From NCBI GenBank assembly GCA_964036665.1, contig OZ038527.1, positions 26,453,901 to 26,517,900 on the forward strand: a stretch of 64,000 nt of DNA. Reading direction: 5' to 3'. Each line of letters starts with the position of its first letter. The first letter of the stretch is position 1. Below are positions 5,150 to 39,388 of this stretch, piece by piece. The notes beneath the pieces are model-generated. The model worked only from the letters and a program-made list of their open reading frames with translations, did not search any database and had not been told where the DNA came from. Made by a program: the position numbers and the translations under genes. This DNA is from Gordius sp. MW1 (Eukaryota; Nematomorpha; Gordioida; Gordea; Gordiidae).

Positions 5150-5245
5150 GCATGGTGTGACGGGTTATAGCGCACGGCTTGTAAACAGGGTGACCTGGAT
5201 ATCCCGGGTTCAAGGTCGGGAGAGGGCAAATTTTTTTTTTTTTAA
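5150..5245 (+). repeat. tRNA-derived (SINE-like) segment
   Basis: GGTTATAGCGCACGGCTTGT resembles a D-arm/A-box running into an anticodon-like stem-loop with TTGTAA, and CCCGGGTTCAAGGTCGGG resembles a T-arm/B box. The loop would carry TGT, suggesting a tRNA-Thr ancestor. A GAGAGGGCAAA tail and T run follow. The fold is imperfect and there is no proper acceptor stem, so this is not a functional tRNA gene. Confidence 0.4.
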
Positions 5246-7780: not shown

Positions 7781-7797
7781 TTACTCCCCCATTTAAA
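7781..7797 (-). other. Polypurine tract of the mag-like element
   Basis: On the minus strand AAATGGGGGAGTAA directly abuts the 3' LTR start TGTAATG. A purine tract at this point is where plus-strand cDNA priming occurs in LTR elements. Confidence 0.8.
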
Positions 7798-8440: not shown

Positions 8441-9806
8441 AAATAGTCCTTAAATTTTGAATAATTTTTGTTGAGTTTATCTCGCCCAGCACCATTACTT
8501 CGGGCCATTTGGTAAAAGCATCAATGCAAACTAACCAATACTTCTTATTGATGGGTCCCGCTAAGTCTATGTGAACCCGTTCCCAAGGCTTGTTAGGAAC
8601 GTTCCAAGCGTATAGGGGTACCTCTTTAATGTTTGGTCGTTCTTCTTGACAATATTTACATGTATTTACGTATTTTTCTATGTCTAAGTCAATATTACTC
8701 CAGTAAACATAATATCTCCCTAATGACTTCATAGCCACGATTCCCGGATGACCATCATGTAAAATTTTAAGAATATCTGGCCTTAATTTTTCCGGAATTA
8801 TAAGTCGATCTTTATAAAATAAAAGATTATTTTCGAAAGAAATGTAATTTCTTAATTGCAGGTATTTTCGTACGTTATCGTTATTTGAAGAGCCTTGCCA
8901 TCTATTTTTAAATTGCTCTATAACTTCTTTAAGTACATTATCTTTTATTGTTTCCTCTACAATATTTTTTGTATTCAAAGTCAAATCATCGATTAGTTGT
9001 AATTTAATTCTTCGTATATCATTATCTATGTTTAAATTATGAGGTGAATCCTTTAGGCATAAACGAGAAAGTGCGTCAGCACACTGATTAGATTTCCCAG
9101 GAATGTATTTTATATCATAATCATATTGAAGTAATTTAATTGCCCATCTTAGTAACCTATTATTCGTTATTTTACTAAGATCCCGGGTTGTCCCAAAAAT
9201 ATTTTTAAGAGGGTGGTGGTCTGTCTGAATTGTAAATTTACGACCATAAATATACTGATGGAATTTGTTTATCGCATAAATTACTGCCGATGCCTCTCTG
9301 TCGATGACAGAGTAATTTTTCTCAGCGGGATTTAGGGAACGAGAGGCGTAGGCAATAGGTTTTTCTTGGCCTGAGGAAAACTTATGCGCTATAACTGCTC
9401 CTAGACCTAAATCTGACGCGTCGATTGAAATTATGATAGGCAATTCTTTTTGATATGGCACTATAGTTTTTCTGTTAGAAATTATAGTTTTAACTTTTTC
9501 AAAAGTTAATTTTTCTAAGTCGCCCCATACCCATTTTGTATTTATGGAAGTTAATTTGTATAAAGGAGCGCAATTTATCTGAAGTTTGGGGATAAAAGTT
9601 TCTAAATAGTTTACCAACCCAAGGAAAGAACGAAGTTCCTTTTTGTTTTCTGGTGTTTTAAAACTTTTAATCTTTAGAACCTTATCCTCACTCGCTGTTA
9701 TACCTTCACTATTAATAATATGTCCTAAGTATTTGACAGACTTTTTAAATAGTTGCATTTTTGTTTGAGATGTTGTTAAACCAACAGTTTGAAAAAGATT
9801 TAACAC
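8373..9806 (-). pseudogene. RT thumb, RNase H and N-terminal integrase of the mag-like element
   Basis: 477 codons open. Residues 1-90 are the RT thumb/connection (VKYLGHIINSEGI, LRSFLGLVNYLETFIP). RNase H spans about 122-250 with D129, E171, D196 and the GKSNQCADALSR end. The integrase zinc site is H350, H353, C383, C386. The core carries D414 (VHIDLAG) and D468 (VSDNGPQF). The frame is lost just after the second catalytic aspartate. Upstream it lacks the RT palm, which lies in two other frames (9806-10514). All visible catalytic residues in this part are intact. Confidence 0.88.
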
Positions 9807-9905
9807 TGTTACTAATTTGTTTAAAAGGATCCTTTTCGTTTTTACCGCTAATTATAACATCGTCCATAAAGACGCTCACCCCGGGTATGTTATTAACCAA
9901 TTGTC
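9807..9905 (-). pseudogene. RT catalytic loop segment between two frames
   Basis: The minus-strand translation around 9855-9890 reads VSVFMDDVIIS, the RT motif C with both aspartates (FMDD, equivalent to YxDD). It lies in a frame different from the palm N-half (9906-10514) and from the thumb (8373-9806), so at least two indels bracket it. Confidence 0.75.
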
Positions 9906-10514
9906 TCATAAACCTATGAAAGATAATCGGCGCTGTTGTGAGCCCAAACGTAATCTCTTATAACGAAAATATCCTACATGCGTTGATATGTTTAAATATT
10001 TCCTTGATTTCTCATCAAGTTCAAGCTGTAAAAAGGCATCCCTGAGATCAATGATAGAAAAAATTTTACCTCCGGCTATTCTTTCGGCCACGTCACTAAA
10101 AGTCGGTAAAATATCCTGATCTTTAGCCAAGTGTTGATTTATGGTTAAACGAAAATCACCACATATACGCACCTGCCCTGTTTTCTTCTTAACATTTACC
10201 GTTGGCGTAGCCCATTTAATCGGCGTTAAAGTAGGATTAACTTTTTCAATGACGTCTTCGTTAAGTAGACGTTGTAGTTCATCTTCTACAGCTTGTCGTA
10301 GTGGAAACGGTACTCTTCTTGCTGCAAACATTTTTGGCATCGCATCATCATTGATTTCCAGTGTCACTTTGAAGTCTTCTACTTTTCCTAATTTATCGGA
10401 AAAGACATGGGGAAATTGTTTAAGAATTGCATGTACATTTGAAGGTATTTCAATAATAGAATTTAGGCAAACCAGCTTTGGTAAAGTTAAGTTAAATTTG
10501 GAGATAAAAGGCAT
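9906..10514 (-). pseudogene. RT palm N-half of the mag-like element
   Basis: 202 codons. The first 60 residues are the protease-RT linker (FPHVFSDKLGKVEDFKV, typical of the family). RT motifs follow: VRICGDFRLTIN (about 115-126) and SIIDLRDAFLQLEL (motif A, catalytic D156). The frame goes wrong after YKRLRLG, where the palm should continue toward the FMDD loop. The break to the upstream gag-protease frame at 10515-10566 may be a programmed frameshift or an indel. Confidence 0.82.
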
Positions 10515-10566
10515 ACCAAAATTGCTGAACCTTTACCTTGGATGACATAAATATCTAAGTACTTTG

Positions 10567-11532
10567 TCACTTTGTCACACCACCAACGTCCACCTTCACT
10601 TTGGTTTTACCGAGTGTTGAAATAGCCGTTCTACCATAGCCGTATATCTTCGGAGCTTGGTAAAGTTTAGGCTTGCCGATTCGAGACCACGTTATTTCAT
10701 CAATGACGCTACATGCAGCACCCGTATCGAAGATCATTTCATAGGGTATATCGTTAATTCGTACGTTAATGTGAGCTTTGGTGTGTCGATCGGAGTCATG
10801 GTTGATGGCTGATAACGTATTCATCACCATTCTACAATTTTTAGCTATATGGCCTGGTTTCCCACAACGATAACATTTAGGGGGTGGCTTTTTCCTAAAG
10901 GTGCTAAATTTAGGAAAATGTACATCTCTATTGTTGAAGTTATTAAACGACTGCTTAACCTTGTTTACTTCAACAGCCCTCGATGTTTCGTGTTCTACCG
11001 AATCTAACGCCAATGCTAGATTAACTGTTTCTTCGAAACTTATGTTACCACTCGGATACTTAGCTCTTAACTCAATGTTAAGCCTTGGTAAGTTACATCC
11101 TAGGACAAATATATCCTTTAATACCTCGTCTAGATTATTTTCAAATTTACAGTTTTTCAAAAGAAATTTCAAACGAATACTAAATTCAATAATACTTTCG
11201 TTATTTCTAATTGCCTTATAAAATTGTTCTCTATGATGATAAATAGAAAACTTATTGGCGAATATACTCCTAAGGGCATTAATTATCTCATCGTAATTAG
11301 TCTTGTCTACTAATTTTGGATATAAAAAGTCCCTTAATTTTGTTAAAGTGTTAAGGCCTACGTAAGTGAGTAACAATGTTTTTCGCCTTTCTCCCGTGAT
11401 GTCTCTCAACTTGAATAAGAGCTCGATATTAAATAAATAGTCATCAATAGAATTACTTGGATCATAAAGAATTGAATCCTTCAATTCCTTTGAGTAATCG
11501 CAAGAAAAATTGTTCTCCGGTTTGATGGCCAT
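10567..11532 (-). CDS. gag-pr: Gag-protease polyprotein of the mag-like retrotransposon
   Basis: 321 codons from the ATG at 11532, about 100 bp downstream of the 5' LTR in element orientation. Residues 1-210 form a helical capsid-like region. Residues 220-233 are a retroviral-type zinc knuckle, C220-x2-C223-x4-H228-x4-C233 (CYRCGKPGHIAKNC). Residues 255-321 are an aspartic protease with MIFDTGAACSVID (D269-T-G). The frame ends within or just after the protease before the RT frame starts. The family product packages element RNA into particles and cleaves the polyprotein. This is the best-preserved frame of the element. Confidence 0.85.
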   Translation of the reverse strand: MAIKPENNFSCDYSKELKDSILYDPSNSIDDYLFNIELLFKLRDITGERRKTLLLTYVGLNTLTKLRDFLYPKLVDKTNYDEIINALRSIFANKFSIYHHREQFYKAIRNNESIIEFSIRLKFLLKNCKFENNLDEVLKDIFVLGCNLPRLNIELRAKYPSGNISFEETVNLALALDSVEHETSRAVEVNKVKQSFNNFNNRDVHFPKFSTFRKKPPPKCYRCGKPGHIAKNCRMVMNTLSAINHDSDRHTKAHINVRINDIPYEMIFDTGAACSVIDEITWSRIGKPKLYQAPKIYGYGRTAISTLGKTKVKVDVGGVTK

Positions 11533-11626
11533 CTGAAAATAATATGGATAATCTTTTTATTTCAGTTGAACGAGGTAGGGAGCGTCTTCTAAACGAGGTT
11601 GAGTTTAAGGTCCAAGGGTTCTAAGG

Positions 11627-15190: not shown

Positions 15191-15663
15191 ATGAATAGTA
15201 GTCACGCTTTTTATTTATTCATTGATCGTGTTTTATATTTTTCATGTATATAGATTTTACCTAATAAAGATTTTTAAAAAAAAAATATATATATATATAT
15301 ATGGGTTGTAGAAGGTATGATCAAACACAAAAAGACGCATAGATTATGACGTACCATCAATATCTCAACCAATTAAAATCTTTAGCCATCCATAATTGCA
15401 ATTTAAGACGATAATTAAATTTACAATCCGAAATTTCCATAATGTAACCCCACATACTTAAGAGATTTGTGGAAAACACTTTTTAGATGGAAAATTCTGG
15501 CTTCGTTAAAAATCAATAATTTAATTATATAAAGCACTAGTTGTTGATTCAGTCAATCAAATAAAATTTCCCAACGGCTCTTTGGTATTCTCCTATATCT
15601 TTATTTTCTGTTACATTATTTAATTGACCTGGCAAACCTATCTGTCAAATAATAAAAATCATC
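15191..15663. other. AT-rich DNA upstream of GPCR 1
   Basis: Contains a TA microsatellite (15285-15301). It probably includes the promoter and 5' leader of the GPCR gene, but no specific element could be identified. Confidence 0.5.
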
Positions 15664-16749
15664 ATGATTTCGGTATATTATTCGTGGTTAAATGCAATAT
15701 TATTTAGTATAATTATAATAACTACCTTATTTGGTACCATCGGCAATACATTTATAATGTTTCTGGTATGGAGAACTAACAATTTAAGGTCACAATCGGC
15801 CATGATCATTATATCCAGCATAGCCCTAAGTGATACTTTAGGTGGCCTGTCTACTGGTATAAGTTATGTGATCAATTATACGCGACCTTTAATATTAAAA
15901 AACGTAATGAGTTGCACCTTTTTTGGAATTCTTACCGAAATTGCATTTATGACTCATTCCATGCAATTACTGGTGCTCGCTATCAATCGCCTGCTCCTCG
16001 TTTGTTTTCCTTTTACTCCGGCCAAGGAACGAATAACATCTTGGTGGGCAACCATAGTTCAAATATGCATGATGTGGATGATAAGTATAGTAGCCCGTAT
16101 AATTCAATGGAAGGTTGGTGGTATTGTATACAGCGACTTCTATTTGACCTGCTTAGTGGATTATCACGATTTTAAAATGCCAATCTTTAAGGCCCATATT
16201 ATATGGCAATATTCTAACTCTTTTGCCACTTTAATAATGTACGTTTTAATAATACGTGGTATGCGGAAACAAAGAAGGGTCTTGGTTCAATGGTCGAGAA
16301 ATAGGGCCGGGCAGAGTAGCGCCCTTTTATCAACCAACCACTCAGTCAGAAGGAATATTAACATATCTTCAATCACACAACCAAATACAAATAATGGAGC
16401 TCAGAGGCCCTATAAAAAAGCTCGCGAAACAAGCGTTGCAATCTATTCCTTGCTTATATTTAGCGTTTACTCTTTTGTAACTCTTACCTTCAATTTTTAT
16501 CATAAAAGGCTAAGTTCCAATCCCATAGCTCAACTGATTGGTTCACAATTTATAACTTTAGCCTTTTACTTTATCTTCACGTTTAATCCCATTATATCTT
16601 TTGTGTTTACTAATCTATTTAAAAAGGAAACTAGAATCTTTATAAACAAATACAGTTGTCTAAAGATTATAAGGAAACAGTTTATTTTTTTGAAATATCT
16701 ACTTTTAAATTACTTAAACTATATGAAGTCTTTAGAATATTTTAAGTAA
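15664..16749 (+). CDS. Class A (rhodopsin-like) GPCR 1, single exon
   Basis: A 361-residue intact frame with seven hydrophobic segments, probably a plasma-membrane receptor. Landmarks are TM1 GN (N28), TM2 ALSD (D57), TM3 C84 paired with ECL2 C163, and TM7 NPIISF (N308-P309) in place of NPxxY. The DRY motif is replaced by NRL (N108-R109-L110, in LAINRLLLVCFPF). ICL3 (about 200-255) is polar and basic, then TM6 and TM7 (260-318) precede a basic tail. The overall plan recalls divergent invertebrate chemoreceptor-like or peptide-receptor-like families, but no ligand can be inferred. It is clearly homologous to the gene at 19022-20038 on the other strand, sharing SAMIIIS(S/N)IALSD, LTEIAFM and the NPIISFVFT end. 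A single exon may reflect an old retrocopy or a lineage habit. Confidence 0.85.
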   Translation: MISVYYSWLNAILFSIIIITTLFGTIGNTFIMFLVWRTNNLRSQSAMIIISSIALSDTLGGLSTGISYVINYTRPLILKNVMSCTFFGILTEIAFMTHSMQLLVLAINRLLLVCFPFTPAKERITSWWATIVQICMMWMISIVARIIQWKVGGIVYSDFYLTCLVDYHDFKMPIFKAHIIWQYSNSFATLIMYVLIIRGMRKQRRVLVQWSRNRAGQSSALLSTNHSVRRNINISSITQPNTNNGAQRPYKKARETSVAIYSLLIFSVYSFVTLTFNFYHKRLSSNPIAQLIGSQFITLAFYFIFTFNPIISFVFTNLFKKETRIFINKYSCLKIIRKQFIFLKYLLLNYLNYMKSLEYFK

Positions 16750-19021: not shown

Positions 19022-20038
19022 TCATTTTAAAAACGTATGAGTTTTTAAAATGCTTATGGCTTCTTGTTTAAAAACCTTTGTAAACACGAAGGAAATGATA
19101 GGATTGAAGGTAAATATGAAATAAAAAAGTAAGGATATGATGTTGGTAAGTATTCTTTGTGTTAAAGGATTAGAACTAAAAGCTTTGTTTGAGAAATTAA
19201 ATGATAAAGTTTCAATTAAATAAATGACAAATATAAACAACGAGTATTGGGCTAAATCGTTTTCACGAGCCTTTCTGGTAGAAATTAGATTGCGACCAAG
19301 ATTAGATGGGACAGAGTTATTAGCCTGTGATGTATTTGATTGTTGACTGAAAGATCTGTTATCATTAGAAGTACAAGCAATGTGTGCGGCGGTTCCACTA
19401 GTTGTCATGTTGGCAAAAAACTCTCTCTGTTTACGCATAGATCGAATTATAATTAAGTATATAACTAGGATTATACAGGAATTTGTGTATTGCCATATTA
19501 AATGGGCTTTGAATAAAGCCGGTTTAAAATTCTGATAATTTTGAAGACAAGTAGAATAAAAATTGTTATAAATAATTCCACTCATACAATTTTGTAAGAT
19601 ACGAACTATAACGCTCACAGTCCAAATAATCCCTATTTGTATGTAGGTGGATTTGTGCGATGTCACCTTTCTCCTAATGACGCCAAAGGGAAAACAAACG
19701 TTAAGTAAGCGATTTAAAGCTAATATCAATAAGTGTATGGAGTGCGACATGAAAGCGATTTCCGTGAGCATACCCATAATAGTGCAGCACAGAGGATTTT
19801 TAACAAAATTTAGCTGATGGTATTTGAAGACATATCCTATACCTGTACTAAGACCTCCTAAGACGTCACTTAGAGCAATGTTTGAAATGATAATCATGGC
19901 TGATTGTTGTCTAAGTTTTTTAATACACCATATAAGCAGCAGTAAGCAAGTGTTACCCACAGTACCAATAATAGTTGAAATTATAATAATGCCTAAAAAT
20001 ATTCCATTAATCCATAAGTAATCATCCGATTTTGACAT
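19022..20038 (-). CDS. Class A (rhodopsin-like) GPCR 2, single exon
   Basis: A 338-residue intact frame, start at 20038, tail-to-tail with GPCR 1 about 2.3 kb away. Seven hydrophobic segments with N29 in GN of TM1, D58 in ALSD of TM2, C84/C85 before TM3 and C164 in ECL2, NRL (109-111) replacing DRY, and N312-P313 in TM7. ICL3 (about 203-258) is Ser/Asn-rich and longer than average. Most identity with GPCR 1 is in TM2, TM3, the start of TM5 (FKAHLIWQYTNS) and TM7. The two are probably products of an inverted duplication. The ligand is unknown; the receptor family is inferred from the seven-segment plan and the conserved N, D, C and P residues. Confidence 0.85.
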   Translation of the reverse strand: MSKSDDYLWINGIFLGIIIISTIIGTVGNTCLLLLIWCIKKLRQQSAMIIISNIALSDVLGGLSTGIGYVFKYHQLNFVKNPLCCTIMGMLTEIAFMSHSIHLLILALNRLLNVCFPFGVIRRKVTSHKSTYIQIGIIWTVSVIVRILQNCMSGIIYNNFYSTCLQNYQNFKPALFKAHLIWQYTNSCIILVIYLIIIRSMRKQREFFANMTTSGTAAHIACTSNDNRSFSQQSNTSQANNSVPSNLGRNLISTRKARENDLAQYSLFIFVIYLIETLSFNFSNKAFSSNPLTQRILTNIISLLFYFIFTFNPIISFVFTKVFKQEAISILKTHTFLK

Positions 20039-22239
20039 AAAGTATTAGACTTATAAGAATATTAGGATTTAAGATTTAACTTTAAGACATAATATATGCA
20101 AAGAGAGCAAATGATAAGGGGGTAGCATTTTATTAAACATTAAAATATATACTAAAGTTAGAAACCTGAAAATGGTCTTTTATAGCTGTAAAAATATTAA
20201 TGGACCCAAAAATACATTATTTTTTAAAATTTATAATTTATACATTGGTGTCAGAATACGGATTGTCAACATAAATCCTCATACCAATGTTTTAGTCTTT
20301 ACAAATTAGTTACTATTTGACAAGCACAATATATTTTTATTATTGCTATAAAAGGTAAATGTAAAAGCAATAAATCCTTTTTGGCCATATATATTATAAC
20401 GACGTATGTAATCCTTAACTACAATTTAGAATTATATCCGTTAATAACAAAAAGTATAACGAAAAAAACTATATGCTACCTACCAATTTTTGTTAAATTC
20501 TTTGTAAAGCCAATTACAAAACTAAACGAAGGCACTCATATTATCCCAAAATAAAAATTTATTGCAAATTTTATTTATTTTAACACCATGGACTTAATAG
20601 ATTTTATAATACCCTCGCAGCTTCCAGTATGTCTCAACAAACGCCTTAGCAATAAATTTTTTTACTTATTTCAACAAAAAAATTATCACCAAACATCATT
20701 TTTTTTTAAAACTTGAAATTTTTTTTAATAATTAAACGCTTTCTCACTATTCTATAATGTTGAGTCGGCTTAAAAAGTGTAATTCAGACATTCATCTATC
20801 TCCTATCAAAATAGTTTAAATGAATATGCCTAACTTAAATATATAATAATTGGATTAATAGAGCATACAGCTCAGCCGCATCTTTGAGCAATGGTTGGCA
20901 ATAAGCATTGCCACTTTTTTACTCAAACATGATATTAAGTTGTGTCCGAGTTTTTCTTAATTGAATGGACACGTCCTAATATTATAGAAAGTGATTTTCA
21001 CAATATCTTATAAGTATTTTTTTTTTGGGGGGGGGGGCTTGACTTAACCTACCATCTTTATTAAAATAGTATATCAGAATTTTTATTGGATTGTGATTCA
21101 AATTTAGAAAGAGAACATGGGAATAGGGCTGATATCTTGCCGATGAAAAAGCACGGCTACACACCACCATCAAGTCACTTAGTATCTTTTATGGTTTTTG
21201 TATTATGCAAGTATATACAATCCAGAGGTTTGATGTTGAAAAAGCTAGAACAATTATATTTCTAGTATTATTAGAAAAATGTATATAAAAAGTTTCGCTA
21301 TACTTAGTTCAATGATTGATTATTTATACTCATTTTCTTTCCGTTCTTTATTACATCTATTTTCGTTTAAAAATGTCTTAAATTAAAAATAAATTAATGT
21401 TGAAAAACAATATATCTATATATAAAGCAGCCGCCTTATGAACTTAAGTTTGCATCTTATCATTTTATAAAAGACTCATTTAATTGTCCTTCAGAACTTT
21501 AATGAATGAGATCAAACGGGGTGGTCATTTGAGTAGCAGATTTTCCGATTAAAAAATATAATTTATGATTCATGATTAGACTTAGTCTAAAGGGGATAAT
21601 ATAGTGAAAGTGACGCTCAGAAGTTCAATAATCAATTTGACTTTGACGTAAAATGAATTTTAAATATACTAATAAACGATTAAAACAAACCTAATAATAT
21701 GACTTATTCGTAAATCGTGAGTGATTTATAAGTCTGTTATGTGTTTTATATTATATATGGCTTTTGGGTTAGATACCTTATAGCAAAAATATGAAAAACA
21801 CACAAAATTAGAATAATATTTATAAATGACGATTCTTAATGACAGAAAACCATGTTGTTACATTTCCTACAAATGATGTTAACAAGCGCGTCTTATTAGA
21901 CCTAGACTGTTGAAAGGAGTAAACAGCTCGGTACCATAACCATCAAAAGAGTCTATCGTGAGAAGTACGCTTGATGTATGGTCCGATCCTAAATCTTAGA
22001 TAAAATTACTATGGGGCTAGCCTTGTTGATTTTATAGCATAGCCACATGTGCCGTAATTTCTTGCTACACTCAACCTGGCAATATCAGTACTACATTATT
22101 AGTAACACACTGTTGTTGATTATACATATTAGCTGTACATGAGAGACTACATCACAAAAGAATTTACTAGTGGTAGGCTGACACCATACCCACGTTGAAA
22201 GTCCTCAAAAAAAGGGACTAGCACTTATGGTATGGCTAT
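20039..22239. other. Unannotated AT-rich DNA
   Basis: No supported gene. Notable only are a homopolymer junction TTTTTTTTGGGGGGGGGG at about 21020-21037 and several long A/T tracts. The upstream part (20040-20300) may include the GPCR 2 promoter. Confidence 0.5.
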
Positions 22240-26341: not shown

Positions 26342-29104
26342 CAGAGGTGTGCACGGATCAAATTTTTTTAATCCGATCCGATCTGAGAGGATTTTGAAAA
26401 ATTTATATCCCATCCGATCCGATCCGAGTTTTTTAAAATCTAAATCCGATCCGAAATTTTTAAATTAAAATTTTACGAACGGAAGTTTTTATTGATGATT
26501 TAATTCAAAATACATAAAAATTAGGTATATCAATTTTAATAGACCTGAAATAAATATAAAATTTTATTTGACTAGTTTTATATTATCATATAAAAATAAT
26601 AAAGAATCTAAATTTTCTGGTTTAATTCGCGTTCTTTTTACTTCTAATGTTCTTCCAGCCACCGAGAAATTTCTTTCTAAAGTGGTAGAGGTAGCAGGTA
26701 TAGCTAAAACTTTATTTGCCAGCTTATAAAGCCTTGGCAGGACTGTCTGATATAAAACCCACCATTTCAGCAAATCTTTTTTTGAATCATATTTGCAATC
26801 TTCATTCTTTAACGAAAGGTAAATTGAGATTTCATCGGTGGCTTTATCTTCTTCCTGCTCATCTTCCCATTGATTAACTATTTTAAACTATAAATTAAAT
26901 AATTTATTTTATGTAAAAAATATATTTACATATTTAAATGCATGTTAATTACTTTTTTGTCTTTTTTTTGAGGCTGGCTATCACTACTACTTGCCGCATA
27001 ATTTTCAATCTCAGTTGCAGAATCTACCAAAAAATCCTTAGACGCTAGTGTGGATCTTATTTCATTAATTACGCCTTCTCGCTCATTTGGGGGGAGCATC
27101 CTGAGTTGGCGATAATTTGGGCATAAAAATATGGCAATTTTATGTTGTTGAGTGATTAGAAATTTTGACTTGAGGGTGGTACAAATATCTTTTTTAAGAT
27201 TATTAATTTCATGATGTTCTTCAAAATCATCAGTTTGCTCGTGGTCTGATTGTGAAAGATCAGTGAGTAATTGGTAATATTGAATCAATATATTGTGAAA
27301 GGTTAGGTGTTTTTCAGCTTCCAGAACTAAAGAAGCCGTTTTAAACGGCCGGAGTATTTCTATTAGTTTGGTCAGCAAATTTTTATCAATCACATCTATC
27401 TTCTCTGGCATATCTATAGAAGTTAGATATGTGGTCAGTTCCTTATACTCCTTCAATATGCTCTCAAACATGTCGAGTCAGGAGTTCCATCTTGTTTCTA
27501 TTGCTTGATGCAATGTATGATTTAAATATTTATTTTTGCCACTTTGCTTCATATATGTCGTTAGCTTTTTGCATGCTTCTATCAAGTCATTAACCTGAGG
27601 GTAATGGAATGTAAAATCATTTTTATTGTATACGTTTCGTAGTACTGTATTCAGTAAATGGGACGTGCAATTCATTCGCTTATTTTGCAAGGCTTTGACC
27701 ATGTTAGAGCCCTGATCGGTAACGTAAGTTATCAATCTCATGTATTCCGTAGGGATGTGAAGTTTTCAAAATTTACAGATATTTCTCTTAAAATTCCCCT
27801 GTTTTTTTTCAACATCTATTTTTGAAGTGAAAAGAATATGCTTATGTAGGATTCCGAGGGATATATAATGTAAAGAAAATGTTAAGTAGTTTATTTTAAT
27901 AAAGTCATCTGTCCAGAGGTCGAGAGTGGCTGAACATGATTTTGCTTTTAAATGGGGGAGTAACTTTAATATTAATGCTTCTCTACTTACTGCAAGTTTT
28001 GCTGTATTCTTACTTAAGGTAGTCCTATCTGAAGGTAATTCATCAACGTTTATATGACCATGAATGGCACCAATATTCAGAGCTCCTTGGAGCATTGCTC
28101 TAAATCCTTCCCCGTTAACGATTAAAAACGGTGGAATATCTTTTGAAATAAAATAAATTAGATGCTTTTCAAAAAAAAATTTTAATTTTATGATTTCAGC
28201 AAGAGGTTTGGTAACAAATTTGTCAATTGCATTTTTAGCTGAAGTTTTTGGAATACATTTATGATGCAAAAGATGGAAACTACCTCGAATGGAATTGTAT
28301 GTGTAGATATGATGACATTTCTTGCAGATAACATAACCGATGTATGTATCATTTTCATTTAGAAGGCAAAGTAACACCAAATTTGACTTTTTCTGTCTTC
28401 TTTTTTAATTTGTTGAAGCATATTTCTTTTACATTTTATTATTATTTCTTCCATGACGGTTTTTAATATGATAAACAATATTGTTGTATTTGCTAGCTGT
28501 TACGAATCCCAATGATTCTTTCCAACACACCCCCCCCCCTCCCCCATTATTTTTTCCCCTCAAGTCAGCATTACTCACACCATCTCGTCAACGACAATAC
28601 CCCTGCACAATGGAGATTGCTTCTAAGAAGGCAAACTACATCATTCACGATTACCCGGAATCAAGAGGGAAAGGAGCTACGCGTGTTCTTTAAGGAAAGG
28701 GGAGATTGTAATTGATGATTTTCGGAGTTGAGTTGAGTTGAGTTGAGATAGAAAGAGATGCGTGTGCTAAAAAGGAAACGGGAGATGTTGATTTATCATT
28801 GACACTAGCTCCTTTCTCGGCAAACAAGAAAGTCTAGCTAGAAAAAAACGCTAGGGAAATACTGACAAATATATTAGGGTATATTGAGCATCAAAAATGG
28901 TAAAGTTAAAAAAGAATGCAAAGATAATTATGAGGAGATATACTAAAAATTATTAATTTAAGTAATTAGAACTTATTATTGTTTATTTTAAATTAAAAAT
29001 CCGATCCGATTCGACTAAAATAAAATGTTGATCCGATCCTATCCGACTTCTAAAATTAAAATGTTTGTCCGATGTCGGATCGGATTGATCCGTGCACACC
29101 TCAA
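26342..29104 (-). mobile_element. hAT transposon with degenerate transposase, 2763 bp
   Basis: Terminal inverted repeats are AGGTGTGCACGGATCAAA at the left and the reverse of it (TTGATCCGTGCACACCT) at the right. Further in are clusters of ATCCGATCCGA motifs, the usual hAT subterminal transposase-binding repeats. The 8-bp target duplication is GTTCAGCT (26334-26341) / GTTCAGCC (29105-29112), one mismatch. The element lies inside the RNase H of a decayed gypsy. The right interior contains a GAGTT microsatellite (28723-28747). Confidence 0.9.
26564..28440 (-). pseudogene. hAT transposase (BED finger, RNase-H-like, hAT dimerisation)
   Basis: Minus strand, N to C: a BED zinc finger (SQIWCYF, then GYVICKKC and a GSFHLLHHKC end, with one frameshift near 28385), the first catalytic block ATLDLWTDDF, VTDQGSNMVKAL (second acidic block), CTSHLLN and ETRWNS, an insertion domain, then ATSTTLERNFSVAGRTL in the C-terminal dimerisation domain ending LLFLYDN. 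Two in-frame TGA stops (near 27767 and 27477) and one frameshift break it. A probable intron of about 66 bp (GTAATT...TTATAG, about 26887-26952) joins the last two parts in phase 0. By family knowledge it would cut and paste hAT DNA. It was recently functional but is now inactive unless the breaks are sequence errors. Confidence 0.8.
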
Positions 29105-29811: not shown

Positions 29812-29858
29812 TTACTGAGACATTGTTCTTAAATAAACAATTATTCATTCCTCACACT

Positions 29859-30209
29859 TAGAGATGTTAAAATTCTTTTATGCTACATGCTCAACCCTGG
29901 TAATAGGCACTTATCTCCTACCATTCCCAGCTAGCATAAGGAGCAGATGCTGCTTAATAACCCGGTAACTAGCACCAGCAGATTGAAGCTGCTGATGGGT
30001 GCTGGTTGAGTAGGATATAAACTAGCTGGGCATCGAGCAGAGTTGCTTGATATTAACCGTGGTATCGAGCATGGTTGTTTGAAACTAAACATGGTTTTCA
30101 GCAGATTTTATTATAGCGTACTCGCTGAGTAGGCAATTGGCATTTAATGCTAATACAAACACAATTTTTATATTTATACATAATTGCTTATCAATATTAT
30201 TTGAATTTT
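29859..30209 (+). repeat. Outer left arm of the satellite hAT element
   Basis: About 350 bp matching the reverse complement of 39030-39380. Shared blocks include CTCAACCCTGG, GGCACTTATCTCCTACCATT, AGCTGCTGATGGGTGCTGGT and GCGTACTCGCTGAGTA. Internal near-palindromes are visible (CCAGCAGATTGAAGCTGCTG). The HINE insertion follows immediately. Confidence 0.9.
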
Positions 30210-31594
30210 AATTGCTATGCAATTTATGGGCTCGTTTTTGGTTGTCCGTTGTCCGTCCGTTGTCCGTTGTCCTCCCTATCTATTTGCATTGGGTATATTA
30301 GGTTATCGCTTTTTAATTGCTATGCATGAGAAAGAGGTGCCCCACCCCTCATCTCTATCTCATGCATAAGAGGTGCCCCACCCCTCATCTCTCTCTCCCT
30401 CGGTGTGTTATATATAAGATTTGTTAAATTATCTATTATATAATAAACATAAATAAAAGTTGTTTACTTTTAATTGCTATGCAATTTAACTAGTTATATA
30501 ATAAACATAAATAAAAGTTGTTTACTTTTAATTGCTATGCAGTTTAACTAGTTTTTGTTATATAATAAACATAGATAAAAGTTGTTTACTTTTAATGCTA
30601 TGCAATTTAACTAGTTATATAATAAACATAAATAAAAGTTGTTTACTTTTAATTGCTATGCAATTTAACTAGTTTTGGGGTTAGAATCCCCGAGTTTTTT
30701 TGACTCTTATGATTGTTCTTGTTACTATCATTGATAATAAGAATTTTTGGCCGTCCGCTGGCTGCTGACCAATGAAAAAAATGACCATTGGCCAAAATGT
30801 GAATCGAAATTATTTTTTTCGTTTTTTTTTGACTATTATGAATTTATATCCACTTTTACCGTGTCCTGGCTGCTGACCAATGGAAAAAAATGACCATTGG
30901 CCAAAATGTGATTCGAAAATTTTTTTTTCGTTTTTTTTTACTCTTATGAATTTATATCCACTTTTACCGTGTGCTGGCTGCTGACCAATGGAAAAAAATG
31001 ACCATTGGCCAAAGTGAGCATCAAAATTTTTTTTCCGTTTTTTTATGGCTATCATTGACTTATAGAGTATCTGATGGTACTGACCAATAGAGAAAAAGTG
31101 ACCATTGGCCAAATTTTTGATTTTTTTAATTAAAAATTGTTCAAATTCAACAAAAAATTTCTCCCAACAATTCTGCAAATTCTTAACATTGTGTTGTTTT
31201 ATAATATAAAGTTTGTTAGACCCATAATCACTAAAGGCCATAAAAACTAATGTAATACGCAACTAGAAGCAAACACTAAATCTAACCCTAACCCTTGCCT
31301 ATATTACATTTTGCCTATAATGGAAAATTTGTATAAATAATTAATTAATCATTAGGCATTTAATACCCCCCTATAGGCATTCTCGCCCCTTCCCACCTTT
31401 CTCGCCCATAAATTGCATAGCAAATATGATACATTTAAACGAAGTACAGATGAGTCGTCCCCCCTTCCCTTCCCCTCTTCCCTTCCCTTCCCCTCTTCCC
31501 TTCCCTTCCCCTCTTCCCTTCCCTTCCCCTCTTCCCTTCCCTTCCCCTCTTCCCTTCCCTTCTCCCCCTTCCCACGAGGGCCGAAGGCCCGAGT
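30210..31594 (+). mobile_element. HINE-like element, copy C, inserted in the left hAT arm
   Basis: Starts AATTGCTATGCAATTTATGG and ends at the GGGCCGAAGGCCC hairpin (31578-31590) plus GAG and T residues. Internal parts match copies A and B: the ATTGCTATGCAATTTAACTA module repeated four times (30472-30680), CCAAT-dyad tandem units (30690-31110), CTAACCCTAACCC (31283), the inverted subterminal block (31406) and a long CCCTTCC microsatellite (31461-31570). The right arm of the host hAT has the uninterrupted site GAATTTTTAATAATAG (reverse of 39013-39028), so the insertion went into a T5 run. Insertion between Ts is the Helentron habit. Confidence 0.75.
30690..31110 (+). repeat. CCAAT-dyad tandem repeats of HINE copy C
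   Basis: Three to four units with CTGACCAATGG, an A-rich spacer and GACCATTGGCC. The minus-strand frame at 30810-31262 spans the units and resembles the frame at 2816-3073 in copy A only because the repeats match. Confidence 0.8.
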
Positions 31595-31639
31595 TTTTTA
31601 ATAATAGATCAATACATTGAGAATTGAGATGTTATGATG

Positions 31640-34035
31640 TTATATATAATAAAAAATATTTATTTTGCGGTTTACATTAGTCATATTTGTCATAATTTTC
31701 ATTTTTAAAGCTAGAGAGAAAATTCAAACGCAAATTGGTAGGTTAGGGTGTCATAAAGATAGTACAAATTAAAAAAATAGTTGCAGTTTTACTATAGTGA
31801 CAATTGTCATAATTGTCATTTTTAAAGCTAGAGAAAAAATTTAAACGAAAATTGGTAGGTTAGGGTGTCATAAAGTTATTACAAATTAAAATACTAGTTT
31901 TGCGGTTTTACTATGATGACAATTGTCATAATTGGCATTTTTAAAGCTAGAGAAAAAATTCAAACGCAAATTGGTAGGTTAGGGTGTCATATAGTTAGTA
32001 AAAATTAAAAAAATAGTTTTGCGGTTTTACTATGGTGACAATTATCATAATCGTCATTTTTAAAGCTAGAGAGAAAATTCAAACGAAAATTGGTAGGTTA
32101 GGGTGTCATAAAGATAGTAAAAATTAAAAAAATAGTTTTGCGGTTTTACTATGGTGACAATTGTCATAATTGGCATTTTTAAAGCTAGAGAAAAAATTCA
32201 AACGAAAATTGGTAGGTTAGGGTGTCATAAAGATAGTACAAATTAAAAAAATAGTTTTGCGGTTTTACTATAGTGACAATTGTCATAATTAACATTTTTA
32301 AAGCTAGAGAAAAAATTCAAACGAAAATTGGTAGGTTAGGGTGTCATAAAGATAGTACAAATTAAAAAAATAGTTTTGCGGTTTTACTATGGTGACAATT
32401 GTCATTTTTAAAGCTAGAGAAAAAATTCAAACGCAAATTGGTAGGTTAGGGTGTCATATAGTTAGTAAAAATTAAAAAAATAGTTTTGCGGTTTTACTAT
32501 GGTGACAATTGTCATAATCGTCATTTTTAAAGCTAGAGAGAAAATGCAAACGCAAATTGGTAGGTTAGGGTGTCATATAGTTAGTAAAAATTAAAAAAAT
32601 AGTTTTGCGGTTTTACTATGGTGACAATTGTCATATTTGGCATTTTTAAAGCTAGAGAAAAAATTCAAACGAAAATTGGTAGGTTAGGGTGTCATAAAGA
32701 TAGTAAAAATTAAAAAAATAGTTTTGCGGTTTTACTATGGTGACAATTGTCATAATTGGCATTTTTAAAGCTAGAGAAAAAATTCAAACGAAAATTGGTA
32801 GGTTAGGGTGTCATAAAGATAGTACAAATTAAAAAAATAGTTTTGCGGTTTTACTATAGTGACAATTGTCATAATTAACATTTTTAAAGCTAGAGAAAAA
32901 ATTCAAACGAAAATTGGTAGGTTAGGGTGTCATAAAGATAGTACAAATTAAAAAAATAGATTTGCGGTTTTACTATGGTGACAATTGTCATAATTGTCAT
33001 TTTTAAAGCTAGAGATAAAATTCAAACGCAAATTGGTAGGTTAGGGTGTCATATAGTGAGTAAAAATAAAAAAATAGTTTTGCGGTTTTACTATGGTGAC
33101 AATTGTCATAATTGTCATTTTTAAAGCTAGAGAGAAAATTCAAACGCAAATTGGTAGGTTAGGGTGTCATATAGTTAGTAAAAATTAAAAAAATAGTTTT
33201 GCGGTTTTACTATGGTGACAATTGTCATAATTAACATTTTTAAAGCTAGAGAAAAAATTCAAACGAAAATTGGTAGGTTAGGGTGTCATAAAGATAGTAC
33301 GAATTAAAAAAATAGTTTTGCGGTTTTACTATGGTGACCATTGTCATATTTGGCATTTTTAAAGCTAGAGAAAAAATTCAAACGAAAATTGGTAGGTTAG
33401 GGTGTCATAAAGATAGTAAAAATTAAAAAAATAGTTTTGCGGTTTTACTATGGTGACAATTGTCATAATTGGCATTTTTAAAGCTAGAGAAAAAATTCAA
33501 ACGAAAATTGGTAGGTTAGGGTGTCATAAAGATAGTACAAATTAAAAAAATAGTTTTGCGGTTTTACTATAGAGACAATTGTCATAATTAACATTTTTAA
33601 AGCTAGAGAAAAAATTCAAACGAAAATTGGTAGGTTAGGGTGTCATAAAGATAGTACAAATTAAAAAAATAGTTTTGCCGTTTTACTATGGTGACAATTG
33701 TCATAATTGGCATTTTTAAAGCTAGAGAAAAAATTCAAACGAAAATTGGTAGGTTAGGGTGTCATAAAGATAGTAAAAATTAAAAAAATAGTTTTGCGGT
33801 TTTACTATGGTGACAATTGTCATTTTTAAAGCTAGAGAAAAAATTCAAACGAAAATTGGTAGGTTATGGTGTCATAAAGATAGTACAAATTAAAAAAAAT
33901 AGTTTTGCGGTTTTACTATGGTGACAATTGTCATTTTTAGAGCTAGAGAGAAAATTCAAACGAAAATTGGTAGATTAGGGTGTCATATATATTATAGTTA
34001 GTACAAATTAAAAAAATTATTTTGCGGTTTTACCC
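31640..34035 (+). repeat. ~119-bp satellite array, left arm (about 20 units)
   Basis: Unit: GGTAGGTTAGGGTGTCATAA, then AAAAAATAGTTTTGCGGTTT, TACTATGGTGACAATTGTCA, and TTTTTAAAGCTAGAGA. The GGTAGGTTAGGG start recurs at about 31737, 31853, 31972, 32091, 32211, 32330, 32440 and so on to about 33967. Some units lack ~10 bp (TTGTCATTTTTA instead of TTGTCATAATTGGCATTTTTA). Each unit contains the perfect 12-bp palindrome TGACAATTGTCA and one TTAGGG. Variant-carrying units recur every 5-6 units (ACTATAGTGAC with TAATTAACATT at about 32270, 32865 and, slightly altered, 33570), a higher-order period. Confidence 0.95.
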
Positions 34036-34194
34036 AAACGAAAAAAAATACATACATTTTTTCCAGTAGAAATAAAACTTACGCGAGAGCATTCGTGGGG
34101 TCTACAGGACCCCTGTGGCCAAAAAGATGCTATATTTTAAAAAGTAGTGGGCCTAAACTTATAAAATTTTCCTAAAACTTAGTTCTTGCTAAAA

Positions 34195-34440
34195 TATTAG
34201 GCTACTGAAAAGGCCAGATCAATTCGTTTTGAAATGCGTTTTTTATTCAAGTTTGTAACTATCGTGGGGTCTGTGAGACCCCACTTGTGCCTTCGAGGGT
34301 TAAGTAGTGTAAAACGTTGAGACAGATTCAATACTTCATTTTTATAAATAAATTTTGTCCTATATTTTAGTGAGATCGTTTTTGAGAAAATCACGTAAGA
34401 ATTAACTTCCTCTTCATTTAAAAAATTTAAATTAAAATGA
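34195..34440 (+). repeat. Inner left arm with 9-bp-stem hairpin
   Basis: Matches the reverse complement of about 37465-37690. It contains the perfect hairpin GTGGGGTCT-GTG-AGACCCCAC (34264-34284). The short frame at 34197-34463 lies wholly in the arm and is not supported as a gene. A related but unpaired patch, GTGGGGTCTACAGGACCCC, occurs at about 34096 only in this arm. Confidence 0.9.
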
Positions 34441-34529
34441 TATCCTGATTTAATTGTGTTCATTTAAATTGTTATGCTTTGTAGTGTAGCTATAGCTAAT
34501 AGTGTAAAAAAACTATACCCTTATATTTG

Positions 34530-34740
34530 ATTTATTCCTTGCAATTGCAATTGCAACTGGTACGCCGGGTAGTATAATAAAATAATACCAATTTTGCAAT
34601 CTAGCCTCCCAGATCTCATGTATGATGATTGTCTCTCTCCTCTCCCTCCCCTCCCCTTTGCAATTGCAACTGGTACGCCGGGTAGTATAATAAAATAATA
34701 ATAATTTTGCAATCTAGCTAGCCTCCCAGTCCCAGATGTC
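34530..34740 (+). repeat. Direct duplication in the inner left arm
   Basis: CAATTGCAACTGGTACGCCG with GGTAGTATAATAAAATAATA and the TTTTGCAATCTAGC segment occurs twice, about 115 bp apart, each followed by CTCCC pyrimidine tracts. The CTAGATTGCAAAATTTTTAC segment of the right arm (37158) is the inverted partner. Confidence 0.8.
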
Positions 34741-34887
34741 ATGTGTGTGCCTGTGCATATTGTATCTCTCCCTCCCCTCCCCTATCATAAAATATTTGAG
34801 TGTGTAGTAAAAAATAAATCTTACTCCAACTCCAACTCCAAGGCACGCTTGCCTAAAATCATATTAAACTTTATTCAAAATTTTATT

Positions 34888-37030
34888 ATGAGTTCTCAAG
34901 AAAATTCTCTTTCTCAGGATCAGGAATGCGAAGACACGGTAATGATAAAATATTTTTTATATATTATTATAGCAATTAATTAATACCTTATTTAAAAAAT
35001 TTAGGGTGTCCATCAACCAGGACCCTCAAGTACGCGAGAAAAAAGTCTTATCCATTCTAAATTTCTTAAAACTCCTACCAAGGGTCACCGAAAATGTCAA
35101 CTTTGTTTGCGAAAATATTCAAAAGGGACTTCTATAAGTAATTTAATTTAAAATAACAATATTATAAGCTTATTTTTTGGTTATAAAATCTGATACCTTT
35201 GGACTTATTTAAGTTTTATTTTATAATCTTATAAAGGTATAGAAAAAGTTCTAGTGATTTAAATTATTAAATATAATAATAACTTTTATATAATCGGATT
35301 ATTTTTTTATTTAAGCAAACTTAAAGAATCATTATAAAGTCTAACATCCTGATATCCAAATAGTGTGTAATATTTCCGAAAAAAATTTATTCCCGGTACC
35401 AAAAAAATCACAACCCATGAAAATGATTGCTTAAATAAGCTTATTTTAAAAGCTATAATCGACAACTACCTACCAATATCCCTTTTTGAAAGCGATTCTT
35501 TCAAAGATTCATATTTTTACTTAAATAATTCATCCAAATTATGGACCCGGCAAAACGCCACGAAAAGCTTAGAGGCATCCTATGAAAAGGGAAAGAATGA
35601 CATTATTCTACAGTTAAATGGCGTTGGTAGCCAAATTGGTATAAGCACTGATATATGGACCGGTGCAAATTCGTGCACATTTTGTGCTATTACAATTCAT
35701 TACATAGACTGCAATTGGTCTATAAATAGTTATATTTTAGATTTTATTGATTTCCCCCATCCCCCATTCGTCGGCTGATATATTGGATGCCATATATAAT
35801 TCCTTAAACGACCATAATCTCAGAAAAGATTTTATCCATAACCCACGACAATGGAGCAAATGTCGTTAAAGCTGGGAACGAGATGAAGAAATTATTTAAA
35901 TCAAATCATCGGAGAGATGTGTATACTATTCGATGTCTAGCACACATCGTTAATATATTGTTCAAGCTGGCTTGCAGCACTTGTCCGAACCACTGCAAAA
36001 GGTGAAAACATTTGTGCGAAAATTGCACAATTCTCCCAAATTTTTACAGAGCTTTAAAAAGGCAACTGGTAGGGTTATACCGCTTGATGTTTCCACGCGG
36101 TGGAACAGCACTTATCTTATGCTTAGTATGATGAACAAGGTAAATTATGAAATACGAATAAGATAATATATTTTTATAGCACATATCTGAAATGAATTCA
36201 ACATGTAATCCTAGTGAGGGCTTACACATCAATAACGAAGACTTGGAGATTCTGATCAATATAGAAAAATTTTTAATGCCCTTTTATAATATCACCAATA
36301 TTGTAGGATCAGAAAAGAAAACATCAATTGGGATGGCTTTTATTTATATGAAAAATATCGCCCAAAAAATCGACGATAAAATAGGTGATGGCATACTCAA
36401 CGAAGCCTGCATGGCCATGCGCGCCAAATATAAGAAGTATATGGCAAAGTTTCAGACTTTTAACTTTTATGCCGCAGCCTATTTAGACCCCAGGGTGAAA
36501 AAGCACTTAATGCCCTCTTCCATGAATACTTCAGGTATTATATTGTAAAAAGGAAATTATTTTTTAAAGAATTATGCACGATTTATACGGTTGCATGCAA
36601 CATATATATCCAACACCACATTTACATTTGAGGAGCCTGATGATTCTACAGATTATAGCATGGCTATTTAAAATGAATTGCGGAGGTATATATATTTTTT
36701 TCATCTTTATCTAATGTATAATCTTAAATTAAATTTAGTGAAACTCTTTCATCAAGGACCGATCTCGATGAATTAGAGGATTATGAAAAGGAAGCCCCTA
36801 TTATGACAAATACAGTTTTAGAATGGTGGAGAATTCATGGGGCGCGATATCCCGGGCTGAACAAAATGGCTAGGGATTTTTTGGCTCAGCCAACTACCTC
36901 TGTGCTTTCCGAACGAATATTCTCCATTGCGGGGAACATATTAAGGGATAGAAGAAATCGATTAGCTCCATCAACACTTAAATATAATATATGCCTTAAA
37001 TCGTGGGAATTTACCGGTGTTGAAGATTAA
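34888..37030 (+). pseudogene. hAT transposase of the satellite element, degenerate
   Basis: From the ATG at 34888: a short leader, a probable intron of about 65 bp, then a BED finger (KCQLCLRKYSKG, a second short-to-medium intron, then LKNHYK) with a stop just before the HPD. ISTDIWTGANSC is the first acidic block. THDNGANVVKAGNEMKK, IRCLAHIVN and LDVSTRWNSTYLML follow in shifted frames. A 47-bp intron (36140-36180 region) leads to AAAYLDPRVKK, and SVLSERIFSIAGNILRDRRN in the C-terminal hAT dimerisation domain ends near 37030. At least one stop and about four frameshifts. It is the only protein-coding part of the element and differs from the 26564-28440 transposase, so the two hAT copies belong to different families. 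Confidence 0.75.
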
Positions 37031-37104
37031 TCATTTACAATAATTTTTACCATTTAAAATAATTGATGCTTTGTCAATAAACTATAAATAACGGTGGAGT
37101 ACGA

Positions 37105-37690
37105 ATTTTTTTACTACACACTTAAATATTTTATGATAGGGTAGGGCGGGGGAGGCTAGATTGCAAAATTTTTACTATTTTATTATACTAAAGCTAGCAA
37201 TCAATAACAAAATAGTGGCGTAGGGAAGGAAGGACTCTCTTTACGGGTTAGAAGTAATTAAAAATTCTCAATACGTAGCAAATTTTTTTAAAACAGTTTT
37301 GAAGTCTTTCCAATATCAATAACTCAAAATAATAGGTAAATTTTAGGTTTAATTTGATTTGTAACTAAGGCATAAATTAAATTTTAGGTTTAATTTGATT
37401 TGTAACTAAGGCATAAATTGCTTAACAATTTAAGATATAATTTTAATTTAAAATTTCTTAAATGAAGAGGAAGTTAATTCTTACGTGATTTTCTCAAAAA
37501 CGATCTCAACAACTAAAATATAGGACAAAATTTAATTATAAAAATGAAGTATTGAATCTGTCTCAACGTTTTACACTACTTAACCCTCGAAGGCACAAGT
37601 GGGGTCTCACAGACCCCACGATAGTTACAAACTTGAATAAAAAACGCATTTCAAAACGAATTGATCTGGCTTTTTCAGTAGCCTAATATT
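37105..37690 (-). repeat. Inner right arm of the satellite hAT element
   Basis: Reverse-complement partner of left-arm blocks. The segment TACTACACACTTAAATATTT (37111) pairs with about 34790-34820, and 37465-37690 pairs with 34195-34440, including the hairpin GTGGGGTCT-CAC-AGACCCCAC (37599-37619). A 54-bp direct duplication (AAATTTTAGGTTTAATTTGA) occurs at about 37337 and 37379. Confidence 0.85.
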
Positions 37691-37779
37691 TTAACAAGAA
37701 CTAAGTTTTCGCGTAAGTTTTTTTCTATTGGAAAAAATGTATGTATTTTTTTTCGTTTGGGTAAAACCGCAAAATAATT

Positions 37780-38945
37780 TTTTTATTTGTACTAACTATA
37801 ATATATAGACACCCTTATCTACCAATTTTCGTTTGAATTTTCTCTCTAGCTCTAAAAATGACAATTGTCACCATAGTAAAACCGCAAAACTATTTTTTTA
37901 ATTTGTACTATCTTTATGACACCATAACCTACCAATTTTCGTTTGAATTTTTTCTCTAGCTTTAAAAATGCCAATTATGACAATTGTCACCATAGTAAAA
38001 CCGCAAAACTATTTTTTTAATTTTTACTATCTTTATGACACCCTAACCTACCAATTTTCGTTTGAATTTTTTCTCTAGCTCTAAAAATGCCAAATATGAC
38101 AATTGTCACCATAGTAAAACCGCAAAACTATATTTGTAATTTTTACTAACTACATGACACCCTAACCTACCAATTTGCGTTTGAATTTTCTCTCTAGCTT
38201 TAAAAATGACAATTATGACAATTGTCACCATAGTAAAACCGCAAAACTATTTTTTTAATTTTTACTCACTATATGACACCCTAACCTACCAATTTGCGTT
38301 TGAATTTTATCTCTAGCTTTAAAAATGACAATTATGAGAATTGTCACCATAGTAAAACCGCAAAACTATTTTTTTAATTTTTACTCACTATATGACACCC
38401 TAACCTACCAATTTGCGTTTGAATTTTTTCTCTAGCTTTAGAAATGACAATTATGACAATTGTCACCATAGTAAAACCACAAAACTAGTTTTTTAATTTG
38501 TACTAACTTTATGACACCATAACCTACCAATTTTCGTTTAAATTTTTTCTCTAGCTTTAAAAAGGACAATTATGACAATTGTCACCATAGTAAAACCGCA
38601 AAACTAGTTTTTTAATTTGTAATAACTTTATGACACCCTAACCTACCAATTTTCGTTTAAATTTTTTCTCTAGCTTTAAAAATGACAATTATGACAATTG
38701 TCACCATAGTAAAACCGCAAAACTAGTTTTTTAATTTGTAATAACTTTATGACACCCTAACCTACCAATTTTCGTTTAAATTTTTTCTCTAGCTTTAAAA
38801 ATGACAATTATGACAACTGTCACTATAGTAAAACCCTAAAACTATTTTTTTAATTTGTACTATCTTTATGACACCCCTACCAATTTGCGTTTGAATTTTC
38901 TCTCTAGCTTTAAAAATGACACAAATATGACTAATGTAAACCGCA
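37780..38945 (-). repeat. ~119-bp satellite array, right arm (about 10 units)
   Basis: The same unit as 31640-34035 in reverse orientation (CCTAACCTACCAATTTTCGT, TGACAATTGTCACCATAGTA). Copies begin at about 37817, 37931, 38050, 38168, 38287, 38406, 38525, 38645, 38764 and 38877. The outermost unit in both arms shares the variant GACTAATGTAAACCGCAAAA, so the array borders are conserved while the copy number differs. Confidence 0.95.
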
Positions 38946-39025
38946 AAATAAATATTTTTTATTTTATTATATATAACATCATAACATCTCAATTCTCAAT
39001 GTATTGATCTATTATTAAAAATTCA

Positions 39026-39380
39026 AATAATATTGATAAGCAATTTTATGTATAAATATGAAAATTGTGTTTGTATTAGCATTAAATGCCAATTGCTTAC
39101 TCAGCGAGTACGCTATAAAAAATCTGCTGAAAACCATGTTTAGTTTCAAACAACCATGCTCGATACCAGGGTATATATCAAGCAACTCTGCTCGATGCCC
39201 AGCTAGTTTATATCCTACTCAACCAGCACCCATCAGCAGCTTCAATCTGCTGGTGGTAGGTACCGGGTTATTAAGCAGCATCTGCTCCTTATGCTAGCTG
39301 GGAATGGTAGGAGATAAGTGCCTATATCCAGGGTTGAGCAGTATACAAGCACAACCATTTCGAGCATTTTAACATCTCTA
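39026..39380 (-). repeat. Outer right arm of the satellite hAT element
   Basis: Inverted partner of 29859-30209. It carries the empty site for HINE copy C. The frame at 39058-39297 is contained in the arm and is not a gene. Confidence 0.9.
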
Positions 39381-39388
39381 CTCACACT

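Follow-up and report, generated by a model that had tools for sequence, protein, structure and literature searches.

Architecture of the Element in the Window

The window, a stretch of 64,000 nucleotides from Gordius sp. MW1, harbours an element of 9522 bp (29859-39380) that is flanked by a perfect 8-bp target site duplication and whose two ends both start, in inverted orientation, with TAGAGATGTTAAAAT. A single element with a perfect 8-bp duplication and matching ends had been claimed in an earlier note on this DNA, and both sides indeed carry CTCACACT; the span given there, 29851..39388, is correct for the element together with its duplications, whereas the element itself occupies 29859-39380. 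The parts are as follows.

29851..29858, no strand: left target site duplication, 8 bp, CTCACACT, a perfect repeat of the right one
29859..30208, plus strand: left outer domain with tip type A; matches the right end at 92.6% when inverted, and is also seen in the alignment of the ends
30209..31597, plus strand: nested insertion in the left arm, later and foreign to the element; borders uncertain by a few T
31708..34034, plus strand: left array with 20 units of ~119 bp, not all of full length (nhmmer; TRF gives 31687-34033)
34035..34828, plus strand: left inner arm; patchy match to the right inner arm, with 276 bp at 96% and further short pieces
34829..37094, plus strand: unique centre, 2266 bp, the span between the innermost arm matches
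34888..37030, plus strand: hAT transposase gene in pieces (ORFs and Pfam domains); introns putative, frame broken
36731-37027, plus strand: C-terminal dimerisation domain of the hAT transposase (Dimer_Tnp_hAT match)
37095..37759, minus strand: right inner arm, matched to the left inner arm
37760..38910, minus strand: right array with 10 units of ~119 bp, oriented opposite to those of the left array (nhmmer)
39018..39380, minus strand: right outer domain with tip type B (alignment of the ends)
39381..39388, no strand: right target site duplication, 8 bp, CTCACACT, a perfect repeat of the left one

The arms had been described as 10 to 20 inverted copies of a unit of about 119 bp. Arrays of 20 and 10 units do face each other (counts as assembled, truncated units included), but they form only the middle of arms that consist, from the outside inwards, of an outer domain of ~350 bp, the array and a patchy inner stretch. 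Moreover, about 1.39 kb of the left arm (30209-31597) is a separate insertion that neither the right arm nor the other aligned ends contain. This nested element sits in a T run, has tandem repeats in its interior and a stretch rich in CCCTT, and carries a GGGCCGAAGGCCC hairpin close to one of its ends; by eye it looks Helentron/HINE-3-like. Similar sequence is also present at 1722-5566 of the window. The unique middle, put at about 2.3 kb in the earlier note, measures ~2.27 kb between the innermost arm matches (34829-37094). The TIRs of hAT elements are usually short, in the range of tens of bases, which we treat as a habit of the superfamily rather than a requirement. The array-bearing copies, with inverted arms of, e.g., ~1.6 kb in C6_8983 and ~2.7 kb in C3_2261, do not follow this habit, whereas the MITEs of the same family do have short TIRs.

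The centre encodes a hAT transposase. A Pfam scan found the Dimer_Tnp_hAT domain above its cut-off both in the window copy (E 4.2e-22) and at a second locus, L048 (E 1.8e-22), and this match, together with the 8-bp duplications, supports the hAT assignment made at the outset. The hAT-like_RNase-H domain scored under its curated cut-off in both (E 1.5e-5 in the window copy). According to the ORF listing, the transposase frame is broken in the window copy, while the segments are open in the inspected frames of the sister copies C3_2261, C8_35004 and C6_8983, for which the exon structure is a predicted one. Part of the hAT superfamily has a BED-type zinc finger at the transposase N-terminus; CQLC and NLKNHFKVYH were seen by eye in separate transposase segments, and Pfam scans of single segments gave no match to a BED domain. 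The closest protein matches of a transposase segment were a metagenome protein (34% over 97%) and a record from the hairworm Gordionus (46% over 58%), with others including plants; sequence comparison of the main segment matched no solved structure.

A Recently Mobile Family

The left end was searched across the 211.8-Mb genome, yielding 412 candidates, 40 of which were scored; 20 fetched stretches and the window account for 32 of the 40 scored end matches, the other eight being left out. Fourteen copies with paired inverted ends, the window copy included, could be delimited, and partnerless single ends (C8_4350, C7_17206, C1_24412, C6_21674 and C5_1258) were set aside. Perfect 8-bp duplications flank nine of the 14 paired copies, and all nine are different (CTCACACT, GTCAAACG, GGGAGGGG, ATGAAGAA, CCAAGTTG, CCTTTACT, CACCCAAA, GGTGTACT and CCCCTTAC, the last belonging to C8_8908, a paired copy with its left tip). 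Two further copies are near misses, with one extra base in C6_8983 and a truncated tip in C7_14209, and three (C2_2138, C8_21860 and C7_17269) have no duplication. Paired inverted arrays are present in the window copy, C3_2261, C8_35004, C3_19224, C6_8983 and C2_2138. The earlier note had proposed to look for further loci that combine these ends with 8-bp duplications and paired inverted arrays, and such loci are found on several contigs. With many copies in the genome, a structure peculiar to the window is ruled out.

C3_2261 and C8_35004, two copies on different contigs, agree at every position of the central 2071 bp, and the centre of C6_8983 is 99.7% and that of the window copy 88.8% identical to theirs. 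C3_2261 is inserted at ATGAAGAA and C8_35004 at CCAAGTTG, both targets being duplicated, and their flanks are unrelated. Different duplicated targets and flanks identify the two as products of transposition rather than of segmental duplication, and identical centres at such targets mean that the whole design moved recently. Thirteen of the 14 aligned substitutions between the two copies fall in the right array, where a stretch of 238 bp, equal to two units, is also missing from one copy and smaller gaps measure 9 and 1 bp. Between these two copies the array has changed faster than the remaining sequence.

Long inverted repeats are hard to assemble, which speaks for an assembly artefact or a local segmental duplication in place of a mobile element. 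Since the design recurs at many loci spread over several contigs, with nine different 8-bp duplications, and since two copies share an identical centre although their flanks are unrelated, this explanation retains next to no probability. The element represents a genuine, recently mobile Foldback-type hAT family.

At C5:9.46 Mb lies a fragmentary related copy, for which 7 kb of sequence showed no 119-bp array. Two loci on one contig, L054 and L055 (C7:17.27 Mb and 17.21 Mb), have similar outer flanks, and in L054 inverted copies lie on both sides and no 8-bp duplication is seen; these copies are possibly nested in a larger palindromic repeat.

The 119-bp Unit Is Carried by the Element

Long inverted arms with direct tandem repeats, whose number varies from arm to arm, place the family among Foldback elements. 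The left and right arrays of the core copies count 20/10, 13/13, 13/11, 12/7 and 4/4 units, and C2_2138 has 12 units on the left and 28 on the right, where insertions split the array. In cluster II (C3_2261, C8_35004, C6_8983 and C3_19224) the outermost unit starts near phase 65, and at the inner end of the array the core copies have one unit that is short by ~12 bp and a last unit truncated at 89 or 99. This shared phase and these shared end units indicate that the arms seem to derive from one ancestral arm in which the number of middle units varies.

The unit length and tandem order resemble those of a satellite, and the unit might have been captured by the element, or might have served as its insertion site, while spreading independently. 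A pattern for the core of the unit matched the genome 709 times at no more than three mismatches, whereas the same pattern read backwards gave 0 matches. Among the matches listed in this and other searches (for this pattern, 100 of the 709), 33 loci were grouped by hand, and 30 of them lie at transposon ends, two loosely so: at C3:2.075 Mb the tip is 2.4 kb away, and at C5:1.25 Mb the family fragments are not in simple order. An end or outer-domain match was present at 25 of the 33 listed loci; for the remaining eight, an outer domain was found in five and none in the fetched flank of three (L077, L078 and L080). These three are what an independent satellite can claim in its favour. The position of the other loci and the single phase of the array edges across core copies speak against it, as does the finding that, among the matches listed, no contiguous array is longer than the window's own. 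Judged from the matches listed, an independent satellite is accordingly a very improbable explanation, and the 119-bp unit looks like a part of the element itself rather than a satellite in its own right. The earlier suggestion that a satellite spreads as transposon arms is right only in that the unit travels as part of the element; the matches listed include no long free array.

Arrays and Transposition

The other suggestion of the earlier note, that transposase-binding subterminal repeats had been amplified into arrays, bears on the role of the arrays in movement. In the accessible part of a study of Galileo, THAP binding sites are placed within tandem repeats of the TIRs (PMC3688188). Arrays that are binding sites of the transposase would also fit the conservation of the unit: in 19 lineage consensuses (L079 and C6_21674, with one unit each, were dropped) the conserved positions cluster beyond permutation (P 0.0012, 0.0028 and 0.0014), as in the block GGTGACAATTGTCATAATT, which is flanked by variable linkers, and units persist even in strongly diverged copies such as C5_6497. 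However, no single conserved window of the unit is significant by permutation (best P 0.078), and part of the variable stretch is A-rich, which makes the alignment less sure there. The unit shows no similarity to either outer domain of C3_2261 beyond that of shuffled sequences, of which 46-69 of 300 score as high; given this shuffle-level similarity, we consider it unlikely that the unit arose from the outer domain. GAGCA/TGCTC is absent from the unit, and its raw count in the outer domains of four copies is 4-6 for each domain.

Further evidence comes from the MITEs. Twelve slices with two close 18-bp tips were picked among the matches listed, and all 12 are MITEs of 61-106 bp that have the 18-bp ends of the family and no arrays. 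Their 8-bp duplications are perfect in nine cases, match in 7 of 8 bases in two and are absent in one; since six slices share one target on C4, this corresponds to four perfect duplications in seven independent insertions. If the same transposase moves the MITEs, arrays are not needed for insertion. Arrays thus look dispensable for movement, and the range of 4 to 20 units per arm in core copies is a further point against binding sites. With the shuffle-level likeness of unit and outer domain and the duplications of array-free MITEs, the proposal of amplified transposase-binding repeats could not be upheld, and we regard a binding role of the arrays as unlikely. The conserved blocks leave some function of the unit possible.

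The six MITE slices with a common target belong to a stretch of C4 (G000:C4:3791288-3893255, L068-L073) that contains at least 15 close tip pairs among the matches listed. All six fetched pairs are one MITE of 102-106 bp with one target duplication, ATAAAAAG, and its sixfold occurrence suggests that it is carried in a larger local repeat.

The Two Arms of a Lineage Evolve Together

Outer domains were compared over columns 41-365 in 13 of the 14 paired copies, C8_8908 being represented by its right end only. The left and right ends of one copy diverge by 0.037 on average (13 copies), compared with 0.076 between copies for ends of the same tip type and 0.078 for ends of different type, and none of 1000 random A-B pairings was as low as the within-copy value. 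Inward of column 41, similarity is predicted by copy membership and no longer by tip type. Because close relatives occur among the 13 copies, the comparison was redone with one copy per cluster, and for these nine copies the divergence was 0.050 within and 0.091 between copies. The left-right distance lay below every distance to other copies in six of the nine cluster representatives; in C5_6497, C7_14209 and C7_17269 the left and right ends are not the closest pair. Within cluster I the left-right distance and that between sister copies are both 0.021, within cluster II both are 0.008, and the two clusters are separated by 0.055. With left-right distances no lower than those between sisters, the co-evolution of the arms shows at the level of the lineage rather than of the single copy. 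Both arms stayed together while the lineages diverged.

The units of the arrays behave in a similar way. In six core copies the best match between left and right units is 0.3-3.4% divergent and the best match to the other cluster 5.8-7.0%, with units of one arm differing by 5-9% on average. In C3_2261 and C6_8983 the two arms share corresponding unit classes, which are 98-100% alike and partly mirrored in their order. In the window copy, a unit's closest match within its own arm and its best match in the other arm are equally distant (0.021 and 0.021), and in C2_2138 the former is closer (0.023 and 0.034), which implies that duplication within an arm contributes too. The units of C5_15865 show no clear co-evolution, with 0.073 between left and right and 0.077 to the main clusters.

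Both Orientations of the Centre

Tip types A and B differ over ~30 bp. Among 13 paired copies, 11 combine one A with one B tip, one is A/A and one B/B; with C8_8908 the mixed copies number 12 of 14. Read 5' to 3', the order is A-centre-B in the window copy and C6_8983, with which C8_4350 agrees from its one known end, and B-centre-A in C3_2261, C8_35004, C2_2138 and C3_19224 (the last judged from a 295-bp remnant). As assembled, both orientations occur in each of two clusters, which requires at least two events if the clusters are true lineages. In the comparison of C3_2261 with C6_8983, the inner arms keep with the centre (97.7% direct, 90.5% inverted), the left outer part fits better inverted (96.4%) than direct (94.7%), and the right outer part is nearly even (96.1% inverted, 95.8% direct), so that the signal of the flip resides mostly in the ~30 bp of the tip. 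Both orientations of the centre relative to the tips are as expected of recombination between the arms and, at the level of sequence comparison, suggest that the arms exchange sequence. A flip of the centre could be mimicked by tip conversion or by assembly error, and near-identical inverted arms are a setting in which an assembler could mis-orient the centre or miscount units.

The reading that we favour, with a probability of roughly 80%, is a cut-and-paste transposon of the hAT superfamily with Foldback architecture, its own transposase, and arms that recombine with each other. Its own hAT transposase would recognise the terminal tens of bases and insert the element with 8-bp duplications, and the 119-bp arrays, as parts of the arms, would travel with it. 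Recombination between the inverted arms would keep the arms of one lineage alike; a crossover would, in one step, invert the centre relative to the distinguishable tips A and B, and unequal exchange between the arms would alter the unit numbers. The mechanism probably comprises both crossing-over and conversion between arms, the encoded transposase presumably moves the family and its MITEs, and the arrays are, we infer, mainly a by-product of recombination that movement does not need.

A more speculative extension is that the palindromic arms serve as a maintenance device, in which recombination repeatedly copies one arm onto the other and repairs a damaged end, while the difference between the tips persists and flips of the centre arise as a by-product. 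We consider this doubtful. Were it true, the transposon would carry its own end-repair system, visible as the co-evolution of the arms and the isomers of the centre, and the conserved blocks of the unit would be sites that start or bind this process.

Relation to Known Elements

Comparisons in this section draw on the accessible parts of the cited papers. Foldback elements are known in the P (Galileo) and Mutator (Tetris) groups (PMC3688188, PMC4079207), and sea urchin Foldbacks are cited in the latter. The statement in the earlier note that no described hAT element has such a design was too strong in view of gadMor-hAT-1784 of Atlantic cod (PMC12368964) and Herves (PMC3143072). The cod element, reported in 2025 for chromosomal inversion breakpoints, is non-autonomous and shares with the window family the hAT annotation and two long TIRs (~600 bp) built of tandem repeats of 167-169 bp, but its consensus has no ORF, and its main text, as accessible, contains neither "target site duplication" nor "TSD" (PMC12368964). 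Herves, a hAT element of Anopheles gambiae, also has ~100-bp tandem repeats near an end, though only three of them, at the left end, and its TIRs are imperfect and 11 bp long; its transposase binds the two ends unequally (PMC3143072).

Galileo (P superfamily, Drosophila) has long TIRs with internal tandem repeats, the copy number of which changes independently in each TIR, and two copies at inversion breakpoints have oppositely oriented middle segments; it differs in its P-type transposase and 7-bp duplications, and in D. mojavensis its repeats are ~210 bp long, with three copies in the longest arrays named (PMC3688188, PMC3573991, PMC2775673). In the Foldback element Tetris of Drosophila virilis, the TIRs consist of an outer domain, ~220-bp tandem repeats and an inner domain, duplications are 8-10 bp long, and a MITE relative has the same ends (PMC4079207). 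Unlike in the window family, no transposase is reported for Tetris in the accessible text, and the element is Mutator by its authors' assignment. A stretch of 37 bp is common to its repeats and its outer domain, and the repeats also make up longer satellite-like arrays (PMC4079207); neither feature was observed in the present family. Muta1 of Aedes aegypti, called a type 2 Foldback, resembles our family in its subterminal tandem repeats and predicted transposase and differs in being Mutator-like, with 12-bp repeats (PMC5225508).

The Foldback architecture described here lies within the hAT superfamily, for which this design, known from other transposon groups, is rarely described. Among the titles, openings of abstracts and excerpts covered by the literature search, with subscription journals mostly outside it, none describes a Foldback element of the hAT superfamily that combines a transposase gene of its own with verified duplications. 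Duplications of 8 bp are also made by the TU elements, the Foldbacks of sea urchins. The present family unites the design with a hAT transposase gene, and it includes near-identical copies in which the coding segments look open. Natural copies that range from 4 to 20 units per arm, array-free MITEs and both orientations of the centre offer a way to test the role of such arms, the candidate roles being binding sites, by-product and end repair.

Neighbouring Features in the Window

A second hAT-like remnant lies at 26926-28404 on the minus strand. A Hermes-type DNA-binding domain was detected in one of its two ORFs (E 2.2e-6) and none was found in the other, and AATCCGATCCGATCCGA-type repeats lie at 26370-26454 and 28999-29073. 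Two similar ORFs, 15628-16749 (plus strand) and 19022-20044 (minus strand), are rhodopsin-type receptor-like by eye, and the latter had no homolog at E 0.001. ORFs at 7793-11556 on the minus strand read by eye like a Gypsy-type retrotransposon.
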